Part shown: piece by piece, positions 1,031-16,017 of the stretch | Position numbering within the stretch: the stretch's first letter is position 1 | Layout: every line of letters begins with the position of its first letter | Origin: a virus | Strand: one strand, 5' to 3' | Length of the DNA: 26,303 nt | Virus record (IMG/VR): IMGVR_UViG_3300044995_000049 | Span: 1-26,303 of that record | The notes under the pieces: model-generated | The model's database searches: none | What the model saw: only the letters and a program-made list of their open reading frames with translations | What the model was told of the DNA's origin: nothing | Program-made: the position numbers and the translations under genes

Positions 1031-3529
1031 TTAAAAAATCATATACTCATAAGAAAATTGCCATACAAAAGGGTCAGCCTCACCAAAAAATCTTATATTT
1101 AAAACGTCATCAGGAGCATTATCAGAAGTACCTACTATCTGTGGTTGAATAGAAAGATTATAACCATCAGAAGTAAATACATCTGTTTGATTCCAACTAA
1201 ATGAAGAACCATTCCAAAGAACGTGAACAAATATTAACTTGCATACAGAAACACTACTACTTTGACTTTGCACTTTACCATGAGCTGTTATTCTCAAAAA
1301 AGCAGAGCCTCTATTTCCTTGAACCATTTTAGTATGGTCAAATAACCTTACAGTAATATTCGTACTTGCAGGTACACGTACAGATTTTATTTTTCTCCTA
1401 TTTAAACCTATTATACCGTCCGAATTACTAATATATTGTTCAACAAAACCATCCATACCACCTAAAAAAGCAAAAAGTTCTGAATTTGTACTAGAACCAA
1501 CCTTAAATACAGCAACTTTGCTATCTATTGTTACAAAGTCGTTTTCAACAATTATACTAGAATAATCTGCGTCTTGGAACTTTATATTTAAGTAATTATC
1601 AGCAAAAGTAAGTGTTGTTTTTCCATTAGAAGATACTATCTTATTATCACTATTAATTACTAAATCTGGGTATAAGGATGTGTTAGGATTTATTTTAGCG
1701 ACCAAGTTATTATTCACATCATATTCCCACAAATCATTAATAAAAGTACCTATTTGAGCAAAAGTAATTTGTGTAGTTCCTAAAATAATTGGTGATACAT
1801 TTACAGCATAAACAAAATTTGCTTCTGTACCACCTTCCCTAACTCTATAAGTAGCGGCGAGTAATTTAGAAGAAGTATTTGAGTCGTCAGCACGCCTTAA
1901 AACCCATGAAGATGTTGGACTACCAACATCTTCTACAACATAACAACCGTTATTAACCCTATTTGCACCGACTTCATTTTTTACTAATATTCTATCACCT
2001 ACCTGTAGTGTTACACCATCAATAGCCGGTAATCCTACACCATTAGCATCAGTAAGAACTTGGTTTCCTCCTGATACAATATAGGGAGGTAAAGCAGTTG
2101 TAGTAGATACTCTAACAGAATGTTTCCAAGAAAGTCCTTGAGCAATACTATCTACATAGTCTTTAGTTGCAGCGTGTAATCCATTAATAGGAGGACCTAC
2201 TAAAGACAAATAACCTGTCATAGTATCTCCTGACTTATTAACTTTACTATTTATTTGTGTTTGTGCATTTGCTGATAAACCACTTATAAAAAGTAGCTCC
2301 GAAGTAGTAACACTACTACTAACTAATCGTTTTAAATTATCAAATACAGCCACCCTTTCAGCAGTTGCAGAATTAATATATAAATTACTAGTAGCTTGAC
2401 CGATAGATATATTGTTAGACCCCGTAGTACCTATATTTATAGCATTACTAGCAATTATATTTACGTTAGAACTTCCATTAGTACTAACAGTATTACCAAC
2501 TATACTTAATACTGTGGCAGTTATAGTAGTGTTTCTATCATTACGTCCTATTGATATATTACCATTATTAAATGTAGTGCCTATATTCAATGTTCCACCA
2601 TCAAATATAGCTGTACTATCATGTCTTACTTCAACTGTAGAACCTGTAAAATCAATACGTTTTGAAGAACCGTTATTTACGAGGAACTTACTAGAATTAA
2701 TAATAAAACCTGTTATCGTATTAAGATTGTATATAAAACTATTAGCAGAAGCAGTAAATGAACCTGTAGTAATATCAATAGCTACATTATGATTAATATT
2801 TAAAATAGTAGGGTTTAATCTAATACGTTTATTAGCGTCAGTTAAATAAAACTCTACTTCGTTACTTACTCTGAATAGCGTGTTAAAAGAAGTAGTTATC
2901 TGAACGTAATTGTCAGCATTAATAGCGATATTAGATGTGTGGTAAATATTAATACTACTAGGGCTAATATCAATAAGAGAGCCTCCTATATTATTTAAGC
3001 GAATATTATTTGTAGTAATCTTTAACCACGTTTCATTAGATGCTATACTACCTCCATTAGTAGAAACTACAAAACTCTCGTTACCTAAAGTACCAAAGTT
3101 TACTCTTATCTTATCAACGTCCCAAGAAGAAAGTGAACTACCTGAAACGACACGTATGCAAGAAGTATTGTTATCAATAGCAAGCAAACCATCTACAATA
3201 GTTGTGGTATTAGAAGCCACAGGTATATACCCAGCAGTTAAACCACTTCCGTTTACACTAATACCTTCTGCATCTTGCCAAGTACCGTCATCACGTAAAA
3301 ATTGTCCGGTAGGTACATCTTTTCTAATAAAAGAAATATCAACTTTACCATTATTATCAATAGACAAGTAACCATTAGGCTGGTTTCTGTGAGTTTGAAT
3401 ATTTAAGTAACTATCATTAAAATCGGATAAAAGAGGGCGTAAAATATTAGCAGTAATATATCTATTACCGTTGGATATAATACTTGTATTAATATCAGAT
3501 AATAACTGCGATTTATCTTTTTGCGACAT
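1031..3529 (-). CDS. Tail fibre / receptor-binding protein with KDYVD module
   Basis: This 832-aa protein is rich in Asn, Ser, Thr, Ile and Val, as expected for a beta-helical or beta-prism fibre. Residues 1-45 form an N-terminal module that also occurs in the other fibre protein of this window (INT at 13-15, NGxR at 20-23, D36, D39). A long repetitive middle follows with many short strands. Next come the common phage-fibre segments SGLSANAQTQINSKV and SGDTMTGYLSL, and then ATKDYVDSIAQGLSWK (about residue 450) opening a module of roughly 130 residues that includes GVTLQVGDRILVKNE. The C-terminal 200 residues have no recognised family and are the likely host-contact part. It is followed at once by the lysis genes. 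The fibre class is well supported; the receptor is unknown. Confidence 0.8.
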   Translation of the reverse strand: MSQKDKSQLLSDINTSIISNGNRYITANILRPLLSDFNDSYLNIQTHRNQPNGYLSIDNNGKVDISFIRKDVPTGQFLRDDGTWQDAEGISVNGSGLTAGYIPVASNTTTIVDGLLAIDNNTSCIRVVSGSSLSSWDVDKIRVNFGTLGNESFVVSTNGGSIASNETWLKITTNNIRLNNIGGSLIDISPSSINIYHTSNIAINADNYVQITTSFNTLFRVSNEVEFYLTDANKRIRLNPTILNINHNVAIDITTGSFTASANSFIYNLNTITGFIINSSKFLVNNGSSKRIDFTGSTVEVRHDSTAIFDGGTLNIGTTFNNGNISIGRNDRNTTITATVLSIVGNTVSTNGSSNVNIIASNAINIGTTGSNNISIGQATSNLYINSATAERVAVFDNLKRLVSSSVTTSELLFISGLSANAQTQINSKVNKSGDTMTGYLSLVGPPINGLHAATKDYVDSIAQGLSWKHSVRVSTTTALPPYIVSGGNQVLTDANGVGLPAIDGVTLQVGDRILVKNEVGANRVNNGCYVVEDVGSPTSSWVLRRADDSNTSSKLLAATYRVREGGTEANFVYAVNVSPIILGTTQITFAQIGTFINDLWEYDVNNNLVAKINPNTSLYPDLVINSDNKIVSSNGKTTLTFADNYLNIKFQDADYSSIIVENDFVTIDSKVAVFKVGSSTNSELFAFLGGMDGFVEQYISNSDGIIGLNRRKIKSVRVPASTNITVRLFDHTKMVQGNRGSAFLRITAHGKVQSQSSSVSVCKLIFVHVLWNGSSFSWNQTDVFTSDGYNLSIQPQIVGTSDNAPDDVLNIRFFGEADPFVWQFSYEYMIF

Positions 3530-3735: not shown

Positions 3736-6351
3736 TTATCTAAAATCATATCTAAATATTTGTCGAACCGTTCCAGCTCCAGAAGACCCAATATAAAAAT
3801 AATATTCAAGTTGTTTATTAAAGTATCTAAATTGAGAAAGCGTAGTGTTTGGTATATTAATAGGTACAGATTCACCTGTTAAAACATTGACAAAATGAGC
3901 AACACCCAATATGTTATTATTAGACACAAACAAAGCCCAGTCAGGGTTACTTGAATCATATAAAACTTGCCAAGCATTATTGGGTGTAGGCATCACATTA
4001 CCTATTCTAAATTTAAGAGTTGGCGATCCGTTTGATGGGTTTATTTCAAAAACACCCATTCCAGTTACATTCTGACCAAGAAGGACATAAGTTTTTCCAT
4101 CACTTGCATAAATAGGACTGTTGATGTTTGCATTAGAAGTTAAAATTGGTACATTATACGTACCAATCAATGTGTATGTATTAATATTATACACTCTAAA
4201 ACTATTACCAGCATTTGTACTTGTACATATAAACCCGTTTACTTCATCAAACCACCAAACCATATATGTAAATCCTGATGATGTAGTTTGATTTATTAAC
4301 AACGTTGTTGTAAAAGTAATGGGATTTATTTCATATAGCCTAAAAAAAGAAACTGTTGATTGTGCTGTTGCATAATATAGTTTATTATCTCTAACTATAT
4401 ATCCTCCAGATATAGTACCACTATATGTACTTGTAAATGTTTCAATAATAGTATTAGTAACAGCATTTATTCTTGTTATAGTTAAAGTACCAGCTACGTT
4501 ATCATTTATAGCCCAATATTCATTATTAATATAAACCACTCTCATTACATCATGTCCACAGTTAATATTAGTTATAGTTGAATATATTTCATTAGCATTA
4601 GGTCTTGTAAATATTAATACATTATCACTAGTTGATCCACCAGCTATCACATATTTATCGTTTATTCCATCGTATAACCAATTTTGTAGTCCTAAAAAAC
4701 CATTAGCATTAACACCACCACCACCAGAATGTGTGGTCATATACTGCAAAGAAAAAGTATTAAATGGATTTATTTTATCCACTTTCTCAGGATTAGTAAA
4801 TGGTGTTTCACCCGCATTCAATGTAAATCCGTTTCTAACCACATAAGTTCTCCAATCATTAGTCGCCGCTTGCCATATAAATTTCTGCCCTTCTGTAAAT
4901 GTGGAAGTGGGTGTCCAAGTGTGTAAAATGTTATTTGCAATAGGTTTATTAATCCATAAACCATTTTCTCTTATAAGTCCATCACCATTTGCTACGGAAG
5001 TAATAAGAACATCGGTTAGTTCCTCTAAATCGTAACCGCTTTTTATTTCTACGTGTATAATACCATCTGTTGCGTGTTGGTAAACTACTTTTCCTAACGA
5101 CACTAAGTATGCCGGAGAAACAGTAGGAGTATTAGTAATATCACCATTAGTTGATAAGTAAAGAATTGTACCCGGTGTATAAGAAGCTGTGTTAACACCT
5201 CTTAAAATACCTTCTGTTATTACATATCCGTTATCATTGTTAGCTATATCAGTAGCAGTTAGTCCAATAGTAGTGGAACTAGTAGATTTATTAGAATTAT
5301 CAGCTAAAGATATTAAAGGTCTATTACCGTTTCCACCACTAATGTAAACTACTTTACCTTTATTAATAAAACTACCTGTCTGATTACGTACACGTATAAT
5401 TGTCTGATGTCCTAATTCAATAGAAAAATTATTAACGTCTGTTTGAACACTAATAGTTTTAGTGTCATCTAACCAATAAACCTTTCCTTCTGCATGAGGA
5501 GGTGTAGGTATATTAGTTATAAAGTTTATGTAGTGAACATCATTTATAGATCCACTATTTAAAAAAATGTTCTCTAAGTCAAGATCCCGTGTATATAGAG
5601 TGTTGCTTTTAGTGGCAGTTATTCCGGAAGAAGCAATAATTACGGAGTTTATTACGCCTGCATTTATTGTACTATTACCAGAACCTATAATAACAGCTTT
5701 TTTATTAGAACTATTAGTTGATATAGAATTAGAGCTATTATTTCCTATTAATATTTCATCACCCGAAAAATTAGCTTCAATACCAATTTGTATTTTTCTA
5801 ACAGTATTAATAGTAATATCTCTTACAGAGCGTAAATTAATATCGTTGTTATAATTTGTAGAATTTGTACGAATAAGAATATCTCCATCTGATGAATATA
5901 AAGCGAGTATAGGTGTTGAAAATCCTTGTTCGTATAAAGTTATACCTTTTGTGTTTGTATAAATACCAATACGAGTATTTATATCATAACTACTTAACTC
6001 TACATAAGTACGTTCCATGTATAACTGACTCTCATTATTAAACTGACCATTATCGGTAGATAGAAGTATTGTACTTGGAGAACCATAAGCATCTAAAGAT
6101 AACTCACCACCACCATTACCAGATCTAATAACTTGCGAACCACTTATAACTATATCATGCGGACCCGTAATGTTACCAATAGCTAGTACGTCTTCTAAAG
6201 AATTACCGCTACCATTAACAAAAGATACAAGCGTATCAATGGTGTCTATTAATATACTGTTTAAGTTACCGCCCTCATTAGCTCTTACACCGTTAGCCGT
6301 TACTTGTGTGTTAATTCTATTTTTTAAAATACTAATATTAACTATCGGCAT
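3736..6351 (-). CDS. Tail fibre / receptor-binding protein with predicted beta-propeller C-terminus
   Basis: This 871-aa protein is a second large fibre. Residues 1-45 match the N-terminus of the other fibre in exact register (INT at 13-15, NGxR at 20-23, L30, L34, D36, D39). Then comes LEDVLAIGNITG, a motif common in fibres of Bacteroidota phages, and a beta-rich stalk. About residues 320-460 form a widespread phage module (KGKVVYISGGNGNRP, then PGTILYLSTNGDIT). From about residue 550 to the end, repeated blade-like units with aromatic strands and small-residue turns resemble a beta-propeller, for example VVYINNEYWAIND and VRDNKLYYATAQ. The propeller call is by eye. The likely role is host attachment, perhaps to surface glycans. 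Confidence 0.78.
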   Translation of the reverse strand: MPIVNISILKNRINTQVTANGVRANEGGNLNSILIDTIDTLVSFVNGSGNSLEDVLAIGNITGPHDIVISGSQVIRSGNGGGELSLDAYGSPSTILLSTDNGQFNNESQLYMERTYVELSSYDINTRIGIYTNTKGITLYEQGFSTPILALYSSDGDILIRTNSTNYNNDINLRSVRDITINTVRKIQIGIEANFSGDEILIGNNSSNSISTNSSNKKAVIIGSGNSTINAGVINSVIIASSGITATKSNTLYTRDLDLENIFLNSGSINDVHYINFITNIPTPPHAEGKVYWLDDTKTISVQTDVNNFSIELGHQTIIRVRNQTGSFINKGKVVYISGGNGNRPLISLADNSNKSTSSTTIGLTATDIANNDNGYVITEGILRGVNTASYTPGTILYLSTNGDITNTPTVSPAYLVSLGKVVYQHATDGIIHVEIKSGYDLEELTDVLITSVANGDGLIRENGLWINKPIANNILHTWTPTSTFTEGQKFIWQAATNDWRTYVVRNGFTLNAGETPFTNPEKVDKINPFNTFSLQYMTTHSGGGGVNANGFLGLQNWLYDGINDKYVIAGGSTSDNVLIFTRPNANEIYSTITNINCGHDVMRVVYINNEYWAINDNVAGTLTITRINAVTNTIIETFTSTYSGTISGGYIVRDNKLYYATAQSTVSFFRLYEINPITFTTTLLINQTTSSGFTYMVWWFDEVNGFICTSTNAGNSFRVYNINTYTLIGTYNVPILTSNANINSPIYASDGKTYVLLGQNVTGMGVFEINPSNGSPTLKFRIGNVMPTPNNAWQVLYDSSNPDWALFVSNNNILGVAHFVNVLTGESVPINIPNTTLSQFRYFNKQLEYYFYIGSSGAGTVRQIFRYDFR

Positions 6352-10658: not shown

Positions 10659-11642
10659 TTAAGCAGCGGTTAAAACTCTTATACAGTTCTTTTCTTCAAT
10701 AAGACCTGTACCCCATATACCATACCAACCAATAGTATGCTTACGACCTAACTCAACGATACCGTCATCTCTTAATTCAACGTCAAGAGCAATAGCCCAA
10801 GCGTATGCGTTTTCACCAAAAATAACAGCTTCAACCCCATAATTTGGGGAGTAAGTTCCATATTTAGCAACTACTTCTGCGTTGGTTAAAAGAGGCATAT
10901 TGGTAGTTTCTATGAATATTACACCCTCATACATACCAACTTCACCAACGTATAACTGTCTTCTACCCATATAGGTATTAGCATTAATCCAATTAGGGTC
11001 ATCACGTAATTGTCTTAACTGTTTAGGATGTGCAATACATACATAATATTCGCCCTCAAATTTTGGTGCGTTATTAGTAGCAAGTAATTCCACAGCATCC
11101 TTAACTGTACGACTATTAAATACTGATCCAGAGTTCATAGTAGCAGCGCTAGTAGCACCATTACCATATACAATATTAGTAGTACTAAGAGCAGCATCTC
11201 TAAATTGTTTGTCAAGTACTACTGCTAAGTTATTAGCCAATAGCTTAGAAGCATCACCTAATACGTCAAGTAAAGAAGTACGTAGTAGTATCTCGGTTAA
11301 TTGAATACTATTAGCTTGTTCCATAACAGGAATAACTACTTCTGATGCAGAAATACCTTGTGGTACTAATACTTCATGTTCAGCAATAGCACCACCGCCA
11401 TCTAAGTTGTTATATTTTGTAAAAGTAATAGATTTACCACGAACAGCTTGTAAATCACGTTTTACTTTTGCGAATTGCAAAAATTTACAACGAGGCTGTG
11501 CTTGAAAAATAACTTCTTTAGAATAGAAATCTCGCACAGCTTGTGGGATAGCAGCATAGCCACCTCCCGAAGCATTAGCAGAAGTAATAGTACCAAAACA
11601 CATAGCTACTAATGCTGTAAATAGAATAATAAGAAAATTCAT
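10659..11642 (-). CDS. Major capsid protein, N4-gp56 family, with signal-peptide-like N-terminus
   Basis: This 327-aa protein forms the capsid shell. After residue 29 it reads as an N4-gp56-family capsid protein: AIPQAVRDFYSKEVIFQAQP, KFLQFAKVKRDL, GKSITFTKYNNLDGG, a lysine/glutamate-poor helix with LLANNLAVVLDKQFRDAAL, and later QLRQLRDDPNW and GRRQLYVGEVG. Residues 1-24 are odd: FLIILFTALVAMCFGTIT is hydrophobic and is followed by SANA-SGGG, a good signal-peptidase I site after A24. The first ATG has the A-rich leader typical of this genome, so the leader appears to be translated. The alternative ATG at codon 14 lacks such a leader and would keep half the hydrophobic part. The gene lies after the scaffold candidate and before a terminator. 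Confidence 0.85.
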   Translation of the reverse strand: MNFLIILFTALVAMCFGTITSANASGGGYAAIPQAVRDFYSKEVIFQAQPRCKFLQFAKVKRDLQAVRGKSITFTKYNNLDGGGAIAEHEVLVPQGISASEVVIPVMEQANSIQLTEILLRTSLLDVLGDASKLLANNLAVVLDKQFRDAALSTTNIVYGNGATSAATMNSGSVFNSRTVKDAVELLATNNAPKFEGEYYVCIAHPKQLRQLRDDPNWINANTYMGRRQLYVGEVGMYEGVIFIETTNMPLLTNAEVVAKYGTYSPNYGVEAVIFGENAYAWAIALDVELRDDGIVELGRKHTIGWYGIWGTGLIEEKNCIRVLTAA

Positions 11643-11662
11643 TTTTTTCTAAAATTTAAAGG

Positions 11663-12418
11663 TTAGACATTTATTAGATTAGCTAATTTAGCTTGAAGCT
11701 CTTCTCGTCTTCTAGCAAATTCTTCAATGGACATACCTTTAATGTTTTCGTCAGCAACAGTTGTAACTGCTGGTGGAGTAAAAGGTGGTGCCGAAGGAGC
11801 AGCTTCTTGCACAGGCGTAGTAGCTTGTGTATTAGTTGCAGTGGTTGGCACATTACCAGCAGATGTAGTTGTTGTCTGAGTAACAGGTAAGGCTCCATTA
11901 GGTCCAAGAGGAGTTTCAATTTTACCGTACTTCGCAAAAATACTCATTGAGTTTTTAAGCGAAGCGTCTAATTCTTCTTTAGTTTTACCAACGACAAGTT
12001 CCGGGATACACTTGCCTTGATTCTCAGTAATAAGTTTATTACGGTAATTTTCAATCTCAGCAGCTTGGTCCAATTTTGTTTTTTCAATGATAGGAGATAA
12101 AGCATTGTTCATTAAAACGGTGAACTTTTCTGCCATACCTTCCATTATTTCATTTTTAAGCTTCTCCACATCTATTACAGGTGTTTCTTTTTTTTCATTT
12201 GAAGTTAAAATAGGGGTTTTAGTTAGAATTTCGATTTCTTCCTGTAATGCTTTAATCTGTGAATATAGCTTAGCTTTTTCAGTTTGAGCAACTGTTTTTT
12301 GAATCTCATTAACAAACTGTTTAAGCTCAGGATTGTCTTCAACAGCGTAAGTGATTCCACCCATAGTAAGGGTCTTTGGTAGAGTAGCTTTACCTTCTGT
12401 GTTTTTTGTGTTTGACAT
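11663..12418 (-). CDS. Putative capsid scaffolding protein
   Basis: This 251-aa protein has scaffold-like composition. About residues 25-75 and 85-135 are charged, coiled-coil-like helices (EKAKLYSQIKALQEEIEILT). About 175-225 is a low-complexity linker rich in Thr, Pro, Ala and Gln. The C-terminal 25 residues form another helix (SIEEFARRREELQAKLANL) that could contact the capsid protein. It is immediately upstream of the capsid gene, the usual place for a scaffold. No protease motif is seen in it or nearby. A minor head protein is the main alternative. Confidence 0.65.
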   Translation of the reverse strand: MSNTKNTEGKATLPKTLTMGGITYAVEDNPELKQFVNEIQKTVAQTEKAKLYSQIKALQEEIEILTKTPILTSNEKKETPVIDVEKLKNEIMEGMAEKFTVLMNNALSPIIEKTKLDQAAEIENYRNKLITENQGKCIPELVVGKTKEELDASLKNSMSIFAKYGKIETPLGPNGALPVTQTTTTSAGNVPTTATNTQATTPVQEAAPSAPPFTPPAVTTVADENIKGMSIEEFARRREELQAKLANLINV

Positions 12419-12756: not shown

Positions 12757-14313
12757 TTAATCTATTTCTTTTTCAATTTGTTCTTCACCTTCTTCACTTT
12801 CTTCTTGATTGGAAATTAAATCACCAAGCATACTTTGTATAATCATATCCTGAACTTTCTCAGCACGTATCTTATTAAGAGCATCAGGAATATTGTTTAT
12901 ACCCAAACGTTTCATTATAGCTTCTCTATGAGTAATACCAAGTTGTTGTTCTACTTGTGCCTCTTGTAATATACTCATTCTATCAGATGGGAAACCGTAT
13001 GAGAATTTAGGATAAATTCTGTAATCACCACTATCCATAAAATCATCTAATTTAAAACCACTCAAACGTTTATTATTCTTATCAAACTTAAATAATATAC
13101 GTAATATCATTTCATTTATTTCTGCAATACCCTCACCATACGTTAAACTTTTTATATCTGCTTGTTGTACAAGTGGTTGATAAGTTAATTGAAGTGCAGC
13201 AGCAGAAGTACCACTAATAGCTTGTAATTTACCTAATACGTTTTCAGGTACATCGGATAACTCGTGCATACCCATTTTTAATTTATCTAAAAAAGCAGTC
13301 ATTGAAGATAAGTCAGCATCTAAACCAAGAGTGAAAACATTAGCTTCTGGTGGTAAACCACTCCATATATTACCAAGACCACGTTTCATATTTTTTATAG
13401 TAGCACCTGTTACAACGGTAGTGGGTGTTGCATAGTAATCAATTATGCCTTTAAGCTCTTGAGTAAGTTCATTATAAACTTTATTAAGTTTTAAAATATC
13501 TTGTGCATCTGATCTACCAAAGTAACTAGCACTATTAGGTTTATTTTTTATATGAACAATAGGAATAAATCCTAAAGGATTAACTGTTTTCTTATATTCA
13601 TGAACATCATTATCAAATTTATTTTTCTCATAGAAATTTACTTTTGGTCTTAGTATTTCAGCACCTGTCTGAAACCATGTTTCAATAGTATCTTTAGTGT
13701 AGTAGGTAACAAACATTCTATAGTCATGTTTACCCGTTCTTTTAATTATATTGTAATCATTTTGTAATACCTGCCTAACTTGAAATCCTACTAACTTATT
13801 AAAATCACCATTTTCAAAAATAGGGAATGATTGCCTACTATCTAGAACGTTAATCTTTACATATCTATTTTCAGCGTCCCATGTAGGCATTACCCAAACA
13901 TCACCACATATACTACCCATTTGTAGTATTTCGTGTATAGTTAATGATAGGTTGTTTTTTCTCCATTGAAAAAGTATTAACTCCTCTAAGGGTACCTTTT
14001 TATCGTCCGGAACATTTTCATTGTATAATGATTCTACATTAAATGAAACACCATTAGTCCCCATTAAGAACGAGATAATTTTATCAATAAATGCTCGAAC
14101 ATAATTAAAAGACAACATGGTATGGTTAAAATCTCTATAATGTTTTCCCTCATAGAATTTCCAATACAAATAATACTGTTCTATTCTATTTAATTCGTGA
14201 TTTGAATTAGATACTACGTTACTTGCTAAAAAAGTACGTAACTCTTGAGTACCATGCTCTAAGTAGTTACGTAATCTCTCGTTTACATTTATTGCCCCGT
14301 TTATATTTGACAT
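12757..14313 (-). CDS. Portal protein
   Basis: This 518-aa protein has length, position and composition typical of SPP1-gp6-like portals, which form the ring at the capsid vertex through which DNA passes. It lies directly after TerL. Visible portal features are the N-terminal helical region with YYLYWKFYEGKH, the RAFIDKIISFLMGTNG segment, a beta-rich wing (GDVWVMPTWDAENRYVKINV), PIVHIKNKPNSASYFGRSDA, and the long stem and crown helices including ALQLTYQPLVQQADIKS. The C-terminus is strongly acidic (EESEEGEEQIEKEID). The start is the ATG 18 bases from the TerL stop codon. Confidence 0.85.
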   Translation of the reverse strand: MSNINGAINVNERLRNYLEHGTQELRTFLASNVVSNSNHELNRIEQYYLYWKFYEGKHYRDFNHTMLSFNYVRAFIDKIISFLMGTNGVSFNVESLYNENVPDDKKVPLEELILFQWRKNNLSLTIHEILQMGSICGDVWVMPTWDAENRYVKINVLDSRQSFPIFENGDFNKLVGFQVRQVLQNDYNIIKRTGKHDYRMFVTYYTKDTIETWFQTGAEILRPKVNFYEKNKFDNDVHEYKKTVNPLGFIPIVHIKNKPNSASYFGRSDAQDILKLNKVYNELTQELKGIIDYYATPTTVVTGATIKNMKRGLGNIWSGLPPEANVFTLGLDADLSSMTAFLDKLKMGMHELSDVPENVLGKLQAISGTSAAALQLTYQPLVQQADIKSLTYGEGIAEINEMILRILFKFDKNNKRLSGFKLDDFMDSGDYRIYPKFSYGFPSDRMSILQEAQVEQQLGITHREAIMKRLGINNIPDALNKIRAEKVQDMIIQSMLGDLISNQEESEEGEEQIEKEID

Positions 14314-14331
14314 AAAACTTTATATATAGGT

Positions 14332-16017
14332 TTACCAACTTTCATCATTTCGCAATTTACGATTAATTAATTGTTCTTCAAACATTGGGTTATAAATTTC
14401 TTCTTCAATTTCTTCTTGTGCTTCAAAATTAGTAGCTAAAAGCATCATACCAAGACTATCTACATAGTCGTCTAAAAAACCGTCTGATTTATGACAAACA
14501 ATATATGGTCCATCATAATATTTTAAACAGTTTTTCATCTGTTCCTCAAAACGTAAAAACTCTTCAGTTCTCCTCGTATTTCTATTGGCAGGTATAATTA
14601 ATCTTTTTTGTTGAATAAAATCAATAAGATTAAACCACATTTCAGATTTACTCTGTTTACTAAATGTAAATGGAGTTATATTTACAGTGTCACCAACTGC
14701 ATACATTAATCTATCTACTACTGCTTTACCAACACCTGTATAATCAGCACACAAATTAACGACATTTTTATTATATAACTCCTCAACAATTAATTGATGT
14801 TGCACCTCATAATCAACATTTCTAATTTCAGTCCAACCACAAATTTCAATTTTTGGAGGCTCTTCTTCATCATTTGGATTCCATACTACTTTACCGAATG
14901 TAAGTACTGTACTAGCGTCTTCTTTACCAATATCAAGTCCTGCAATAATAATGTCATCTTCCTCAATTCGTAATCCTTTTTTGTTATTACATAGTTTTTC
15001 AAATTCTTTATCTGTAATGAGCATACCACTTTCCAAATCCCACTCAAGAGCATAACTAAGGCGGAATGCTTTACTATCACGACCCCATCTTTCCATTTTT
15101 TTAGTAACATCTTTTTCATACTTCAAATGGAATGGATTTCTGTCTTTAAGAAATTGTTCTCTACGTGCTTTAAATATTTTTTTATAATCGTATTCGTAAT
15201 GGTATAAAATACGTGGGTCCTTACAGTACCTATTTTTGTTTTTATTATGTTGTATTTCGTACCAAAAGTTATTTTTTTGAGTTCCTGTTGTTCCACACTT
15301 TATTATAGTACCACCTGTAGCAGAAACCATTGGTTCAATACTCTTTTGAATAATATAATCGTCAATATCTTGAGCTTCCTCACAAATGATTAAATCATAC
15401 GTAGCAGATTCTATTTTAGACTGTTTACTAGCTACTTGTCCTGTTAAAGAACTACCATTAGTTAATTCATATCTTTTTGGAGAAGTTAAACTAATATCTA
15501 AATCAGGGTCTTCCATAACCATAGATGCGTTTTCAGAACTTATACGTAATAAAGCACGATTATAAGTATTCCATACCTGATCTGATTGAGGTGCAAATAA
15601 CCCTATACGAATACCATTTTTAAATTGTTCTAAGTCAGGTATTATTTTAGCAAGAGCCGGTAAAATAGTAGATAATGTATTAATTACAAAAGCTAACGTT
15701 TCAGATTTTCCTGACTGACGAGATAATAACATAGTAATTACTTCATTCTCAAAACTGATAACGTGATGTATGATTGCGTATGCCATCTCTTCCTGATAAG
15801 AATATAAAGGCATACCCGTAAGTATCTTACCAAATTCGACACATTTAGCTGTTACAAAATGTGTATCAAAACTAACCCCCTTTCGTAATTCTTCTTCTAA
15901 TAGTTTATCTAGGTCAATCTCTTTGATAGCTTCCTCAACGGACTTACCTTCCGACTCAAAAATACCCGTAGCATCAATCTTACGGACTTTACCTTGTCTT
16001 ACTGTTTTTTTACTCAT
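14332..16017 (-). CDS. terL: Terminase large subunit (TerL)
   Basis: This 561-aa protein is the DNA-packaging ATPase and nuclease. Walker A is at 99-105 (SRQSGKS) and Walker B at about 207-214 (YDLIICEE, catalytic E214). The coupling motif is at about 240-246 (KCGTTGT). The RNase H-like nuclease domain shows its acidic residues at D362 (GLDIGKED), D425 (LCADYTGVG) and the cluster D516/D517/D520 (DGFLDDYVD). All motifs expected for an active enzyme are present and the length is normal. The portal gene follows directly. A small terminase subunit was not recognised nearby; one of the small upstream genes could supply it. Confidence 0.93.
   Translation of the reverse strand: MSKKTVRQGKVRKIDATGIFESEGKSVEEAIKEIDLDKLLEEELRKGVSFDTHFVTAKCVEFGKILTGMPLYSYQEEMAYAIIHHVISFENEVITMLLSRQSGKSETLAFVINTLSTILPALAKIIPDLEQFKNGIRIGLFAPQSDQVWNTYNRALLRISSENASMVMEDPDLDISLTSPKRYELTNGSSLTGQVASKQSKIESATYDLIICEEAQDIDDYIIQKSIEPMVSATGGTIIKCGTTGTQKNNFWYEIQHNKNKNRYCKDPRILYHYEYDYKKIFKARREQFLKDRNPFHLKYEKDVTKKMERWGRDSKAFRLSYALEWDLESGMLITDKEFEKLCNNKKGLRIEEDDIIIAGLDIGKEDASTVLTFGKVVWNPNDEEEPPKIEICGWTEIRNVDYEVQHQLIVEELYNKNVVNLCADYTGVGKAVVDRLMYAVGDTVNITPFTFSKQSKSEMWFNLIDFIQQKRLIIPANRNTRRTEEFLRFEEQMKNCLKYYDGPYIVCHKSDGFLDDYVDSLGMMLLATNFEAQEEIEEEIYNPMFEEQLINRKLRNDESW

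Follow-up and report, generated by a model that had tools for sequence, protein, structure and literature searches.

A membrane-grade hydrophobic segment at the N-terminus of the major capsid protein in a clade of Bacteroidota tailed phages

The shell proteins of tailed phages are generally treated as soluble and cytoplasmic. The major capsid protein (MCP) encoded in the 26,303-base stretch of DNA analysed here (the window), which is the complete virus record IMGVR_UViG_3300044995_000049, begins with a hydrophobic segment, and the question is whether this segment is an export signal, a membrane anchor, or an internal part of the assembling head. The MCP open reading frame starts with the sequence MNFLIILFTALVAMCFGTITSANASGGGYAAIPQAVRDFYSKE. 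The features of the locus are:

10659-11642, minus strand: MCP open reading frame, 327 amino acids, HK97 fold, N4-gp56/Phage_capsid_3 type (profiles, AF2, fold comparison)
11592-11642, minus strand: N-terminal hydrophobic helix, MCP residues 1-17 (MNFLIILFTALVAMCFG), terminating in an invariant F-[G/A] (alignment, composition, hydrophobicity; AF2 helix 2-14)
11559-11591, minus strand: Ser/Thr/Gly/Ala-rich linker TITSANASGGG, MCP residues 18-28 (pLDDT <50 at residues 16-27; alignment)
10662-11558, minus strand: HK97-fold body, MCP residues 29-327 (AF2, VIA-align, Foldseek)
11643-11662, minus strand: A/T-rich leader that separates the MCP start codon from the scaffold-like gene (sequence)
11663-12418, minus strand: scaffold-like protein, 251 amino acids, directly upstream of the MCP, without a hydrophobic segment (position)
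12757-14313, minus strand: portal protein, SPP1_portal (profile)
14332-16017, minus strand: probable terminase large subunit (Terminase_6C, E 3e-4, just under the family cut-off; profile)

The MCP belongs to the N4-gp56 HK97-fold capsid proteins by both profile and fold. The Pfam profile Phage_capsid_3 (PF13252) matches it with 45.1 bits (cut-off 23, E 9e-12), and PHROG 1357, 'major head protein', with an E-value of 1.9e-48. The AF2 model computed from 33 sequences has the HK97 fold and a pLDDT of 86, and superseded an initial model from 11 sequences with a pLDDT of 44. The capsid protein of Ralstonia phage GP4 is the best VIA-align match of the model (Z 20.9), that of N4 reaches a Z of 19.8, and Foldseek relates the model to Pan3 (1.2e-17). 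Residues 2-14 are predicted to form a separate helix, tied to the body via a low-confidence linker in which residues 16-27 are predicted to be disordered. The VIA-align comparison scarcely covers residues below 26 and is uninformative on the helix. The linker region aligns with the natural start region of helix-less MCPs, in agreement with the first-pass annotation of this DNA, which had placed the start of the usual capsid sequence after the segment.

The nearest annotated relative of the MCP, at 70% identity, comes from Bacteroides phage BS162P1, which infects B. salyersiae, and is listed as a hypothetical protein; relatives from IMG/VR and one more gut record are 54-73% identical. A search for relatives in bacterial genomes confirmed none. 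BS162P1 and the export signals of other relatives, which follow the Q-rule described below, point to a gut-type phage of Bacteroidota. Upstream of the MCP lie the scaffold-like gene, a small gene, the SPP1-type portal, and the probable terminase. The position of the scaffold-like gene, and the portal-scaffold-MCP order annotated in Streptomyces phage pSt2308, suggest a scaffold function. The window terminase has 561 residues and no intein domain was seen in it; the gene at the terminase position of BS162P1 (L107:9334-12057) is much longer, with 907 codons, and has an intein (Intein_splicing E 2e-12, LAGLIDADG_3 E 7e-12). It is immediately preceded by a PTPS/QueD-like gene (L107:8805-9341, E 4e-30), which may be part of a 7-deazaguanine DNA-modification route, and a similar-looking short gene lies ahead of the terminase in L098 (90-623). 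Elsewhere on the minus strand of the window, a single-span, holin- or spanin-like membrane protein (647-1009) adjoins an M15 peptidase (170-634; Peptidase_M15_4, E 5e-11), and the two are a probable lysis pair. Two large fibre-like proteins rich in Asn, Ser and Thr (1031-3529 and 3736-6351, minus strand; 832 and 871 residues) are probably receptor-binding or tail-fibre proteins.

Residues 1-17 of the MCP are uncharged and hydrophobic. Among 2,000,000 random 16-mers drawn at the amino-acid frequencies of the remaining window proteins, 896 had no D, E, K or R and a mean Kyte-Doolittle value of at least 2. Only two of the 6,960 real 17-residue windows of those proteins pass, and these overlap and both lie in the holin-like transmembrane protein at 647-1009. 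This rarity in random draws and in real sequence places the segment beyond chance. The hydrophobic N-terminus reported in the first-pass annotation is thus real; its codons 1-24 correspond to positions 11571-11642 on the minus strand, so the boundary given as 11569 was off by two bases, and the hydrophobic stretch lies within this interval, at residues 1-17.

Of 18 distinct close relatives whose N-terminus is complete, a set that includes the window and the isolate BS162P1, 17 have the segment, although relatives were sampled unevenly and the majority of carriers come from one shallow group. This answers the annotation's question of whether the segment is conserved among related Bacteroidota phages: it is conserved clade-wide. 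Among carriers it is 17-22 residues long, and in most it is followed by the motif [E/D]-T-T-[S/A]-[A/Q] and then by a glycine-rich stretch. The sole exception, L032, is 61% identical and starts with MSTTSAFTGGGY; upstream of this start there is just a stop-bounded A/T-rich leader. More distant N4-gp56 MCPs (33-41% identity) have short polar starts, such as MPDNITSAVAAGG or MASAITGTPNITG, and no segment, which bears out the premise that usual capsid proteins lack it. Because L032 and the distant MCPs begin near the TTSA motif that follows the segment in carriers, the segment is best described as an add-on. In a tree of the body, L032 groups with the carriers in a single clade (16 rows) with full support and sits in its unresolved base, which fits a gain after L032 branched off and a loss in L032 equally.

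Two deep lineages, L033 and L035, have K/R ahead of a less hydrophobic core. Such K/R-bearing, more signal-peptide-like MCP starts of two deep relatives (L103:5001-6014 and L100:2939-3967; MRPFKFFRNILAVVLLFPFVAFGA and MLRLIKSFIALFLLPFTAFG) mean that the segment has altered its charge in the course of the clade's history. The scaffold-like protein of L032/L093, whose MCP is without the segment, has a K-rich, short hydrophobic start (L093:3764-4672; MKKQIVSVAALLAAKTIGDN) that is absent from other scaffolds; possibly the element moved, or the likeness is due to chance.

The segment is in all likelihood translated from the first ATG, as the first-pass annotation had supposed. The MCP frame is open for only two codons upstream of this ATG, the leader is A/T-rich, and the segment alignment contains no internal start codon past the hydrophobic core that is conserved among relatives. 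Such an internal start was the finding named in advance as counting against the segment, and the alignment does not support it. The 15 aligned segments share a mean pairwise identity of 27%, compared with 75% for the body, and their final two residues are invariant (F, then G or A). At codon position 2, T makes up 62% in the segment and 29% in the body, and A 2% and 31%; at position 1, T makes up 37% and 17%; position 3 is unchanged. T enrichment at position 1 is expected for F, L and similar residues. Since the enrichment peaks at codon position 2, selection acts on the protein, and alignment and codon usage together indicate that the segment is restricted to the clade and that its hydrophobicity is maintained by selection at the protein level. 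A by-product of T-rich DNA is ruled out by the same distribution, in which the T excess peaks at position 2, with A down to 2% there, and vanishes at position 3. A lipoprotein is likewise ruled out, as there is no lipobox (C15 stands in the context VAMC) and the relatives do not conserve this cysteine. That the annotated start is an artefact, with the true start internal and the segment untranslated, is extremely improbable: an in-frame ATG at codon 14 of the window MCP would allow it, but in most relatives the core is not followed by an internal start, and the bias at codon position 2 is that of coding selection.

Exported proteins of the same phages provide a reference for what an export signal looks like here. 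Nine Sec/SPI-type N-termini were found in a scan of five relatives and the L098 locus, and all nine have a start of the MK[K/R/N] or MKKW type and a Q at position +1 after a small residue, as in a BS162P1 protein with MKRLTFTLAILMFANLAFA before the site and QVRF after it. A Q at +1 of signal peptidase I (SPI) substrates is the Q-rule of Bacteroidetes, for which the predicted Q-values have a cross-species mean of 71% (PMC5837995). Bacteroidota Sec/SPI signals have a hydrophobic core of similar length to the MCP segment; however, the segment lacks two of their features, a positively charged n-region and Q at +1. There is no K/R before the core in 15 of the 17 carriers (the window and 14 of the 16 others, the exceptions being L033 and L035), no MCP segment has a Q after its F-[G/A] end, and residues 1-32 of the window MCP contain no Q at all.

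The h-region of the MCP segment is also more hydrophobic than that of the same-phage signal peptides. We calculated an insertion score as the summed biological hydrophobicity scale, of which only the comparison between groups is meaningful. The score averages -1.7 over all 17 MCP segments (-1.1 to -3.6 in the 15 without K/R), -1.8 over N-terminal transmembrane proteins of the same phages (range +0.4 to -4.1), and +1.8 over their signal peptides (range -0.4 to +3.3); segment-less MCPs average +10. The hydrophobicity of the MCP segment matches that of membrane anchors, not that of signal peptides, apart from L033 and L035, which score within the signal-peptide range.

The SANA sequence, which the first-pass annotation regarded as a good signal-peptidase I site, is not supported as one: besides the absent n-region charge and Q and the anchor-grade hydrophobicity, SANA is unconserved. 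Its A24 occurs in eight of 15 aligned relatives, with V or T in the rest, and similar alanines (TSAVAAGG) are found in segment-less MCPs, so that alanines of this type predate the segment. A true Sec signal peptide cleaved by the host SPI appears highly unlikely. The hydrophobic core, a small residue at -1 of the F-[G/A] site (G or A in all) and the K/R n-regions of L033 and L035 would suit it, and signal peptides have likewise been predicted on the MCPs of Porphyromonas 'Nixviridae' in a 2023 study (PMC10367356). Against it stand the n-region and +1 positions, which set most segments apart from all nine controls, the F at -3 of the F-[G/A] site in six of 15, the lack of conservation of SANA, and the outcome that the shell protein would end up in the periplasm.

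The reading that we tentatively favour, while considering it possible rather than probable, is a transient membrane tether: a reverse-anchor-like helix (N-terminus out, C-terminus in) that would draw the MCP to the inner membrane as heads are assembled. The emerging N-terminal helix would reach the inner membrane and insert in this orientation. With all K/R positioned C-terminal of the helix, the capsid domain would, by the positive-inside rule, remain cytoplasmic. Newly made MCP would be held at the cytoplasmic face, where head assembly would start, and upon closure of the shell the helix would be pulled out, buried or cut off. Membrane-targeting pathways normally capture uncharged, strongly hydrophobic N-termini of 17-22 residues. 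The preference for a tether comes from this capture, from the positive-inside rule, and from the precedent of T4, in which prohead assembly starts from a membrane-attached portal (PMC9958956). It is consistent with a segment that has drifted far in sequence yet stayed hydrophobic across the clade, with the negative insertion scores of all 15 K/R-free segments, like those of same-phage anchors, and with K/R restricted to the C-terminal side in 15 carriers, the window among them. L033 and L035, with K/R before a weaker core, would instead favour the export orientation, and L032 lives without the segment. The main objection is geometric: MCP N-termini are interior in T4 proheads (PMC9958956), so a lasting anchor would be enclosed. 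A release protease was also not found. No match to the S78, S14 and S49 families was detected in the window, BS162P1 and the relatives, where the positive controls worked, nor to S77, for which the search had no positive control; several of the records are fragments. The further claim that every copy of the HK97-fold shell protein is anchored in the host inner membrane (N-out, C-in), with heads built on the membrane surface throughout the clade, is in our judgement unlikely.

The main rival to the tether is an internal assembly helix, a minimal analogue of a delta domain that would point into the procapsid, cluster under the capsomers or bind the scaffold, and later be buried or trimmed; we consider it plausible but doubtful. 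N-terminal extensions of HK97-fold MCPs, such as those of T4 and the delta domains of HK97 and T5, lie in the procapsid interior and have a role in assembly (PMC9958956, PMC3185693), which, like the interior N-termini of T4 proheads, would accord with such a helix. The flexible linker that joins the predicted helix to the body would also suit it, and the invariance of the F-[G/A] junction hints at a specific contact. The 15 segments have a helical periodicity of 95-100 degrees; as proof of a protein interface this is not robust, since it falls short of significance for the deep-lineage set, and a similar trend shows in the signal-peptide controls. The free sequence drift is unlike a packed interface, a separate scaffold-like gene is already present in these phages, and an uncharged hydrophobic N-terminus of this length would not easily escape membrane targeting. 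That the segment is a pro-peptide without a membrane role, which some unrecognised phage protease cuts off in the prohead during maturation, seems distinctly improbable. A cut near F-[G/A] would restore an N-terminus of the segment-less type (MSTTSA in L032, MPDNITSA in L040), and cleavage by a prohead protease was proposed for the 'Nixviridae' MCPs (PMC10367356); nevertheless, none of the four protease families was detected, and a pro-peptide leaves unexplained why hydrophobicity alone is conserved.

Among known systems, the closest in the body are the MCPs of the Streptomyces phage BRock/pSt2308 type (N4-gp56/PHROG 1357), which have a homologous HK97-fold body (38% identity) and the same order of portal, scaffold and MCP; unlike the window MCP, they start with MASAITGTPNITGSPTAYAGG... 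and have no hydrophobic segment. The pro-region of T4 gp23 and the delta domains of HK97 and T5 are likewise N-terminal MCP extensions outside the conserved shell fold. However, they are far longer, with 65 N-terminal residues lost from gp23 (PMC9958956), and gp23's is cut by phage proteases, whereas those of HK97 and T5 are built-in scaffolds; in the window clade the extension consists of 17-22 hydrophobic residues, the scaffold-like gene is separate, and no protease was found. The 'Nixviridae' of Porphyromonas gingivalis are also Bacteroidota phages whose MCPs are reported to have a signal-peptide-like N-terminus, for which cleavage by a prohead protease of the phage is proposed (PMC10367356). 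The major coat protein pVIII of filamentous phages has a transmembrane helix and assembles at the inner membrane (PMC3185693), but its fold and virion are unrelated, an extruded helical filament rather than the head of a tailed phage.

With the 'Nixviridae', there is a precedent for a Bacteroidota phage whose MCP starts like a signal peptide. What appears to be new is a conserved, clade-wide segment of membrane grade that was added before an ancestral-type start and contrasts with the export signals of the same phages. In the openly accessible literature, we found no report in which an N-terminal transmembrane segment is described on an HK97-fold MCP, and no paper on BS162P1; a lead on a signal peptide, PBR31, concerns an esterase, not a capsid protein. 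The prediction of a signal peptide on a phage capsid protein does not amount to export, and here the exported proteins of the same phages argue against it. The isolate pair of BS162P1 and B. salyersiae makes the question directly testable. A selected, membrane-grade helix on the shell protein would either tie capsid assembly to the membrane or represent a new internal assembly helix, and, if every subunit were anchored, the result would be an HK97 capsid made of membrane-anchored subunits.
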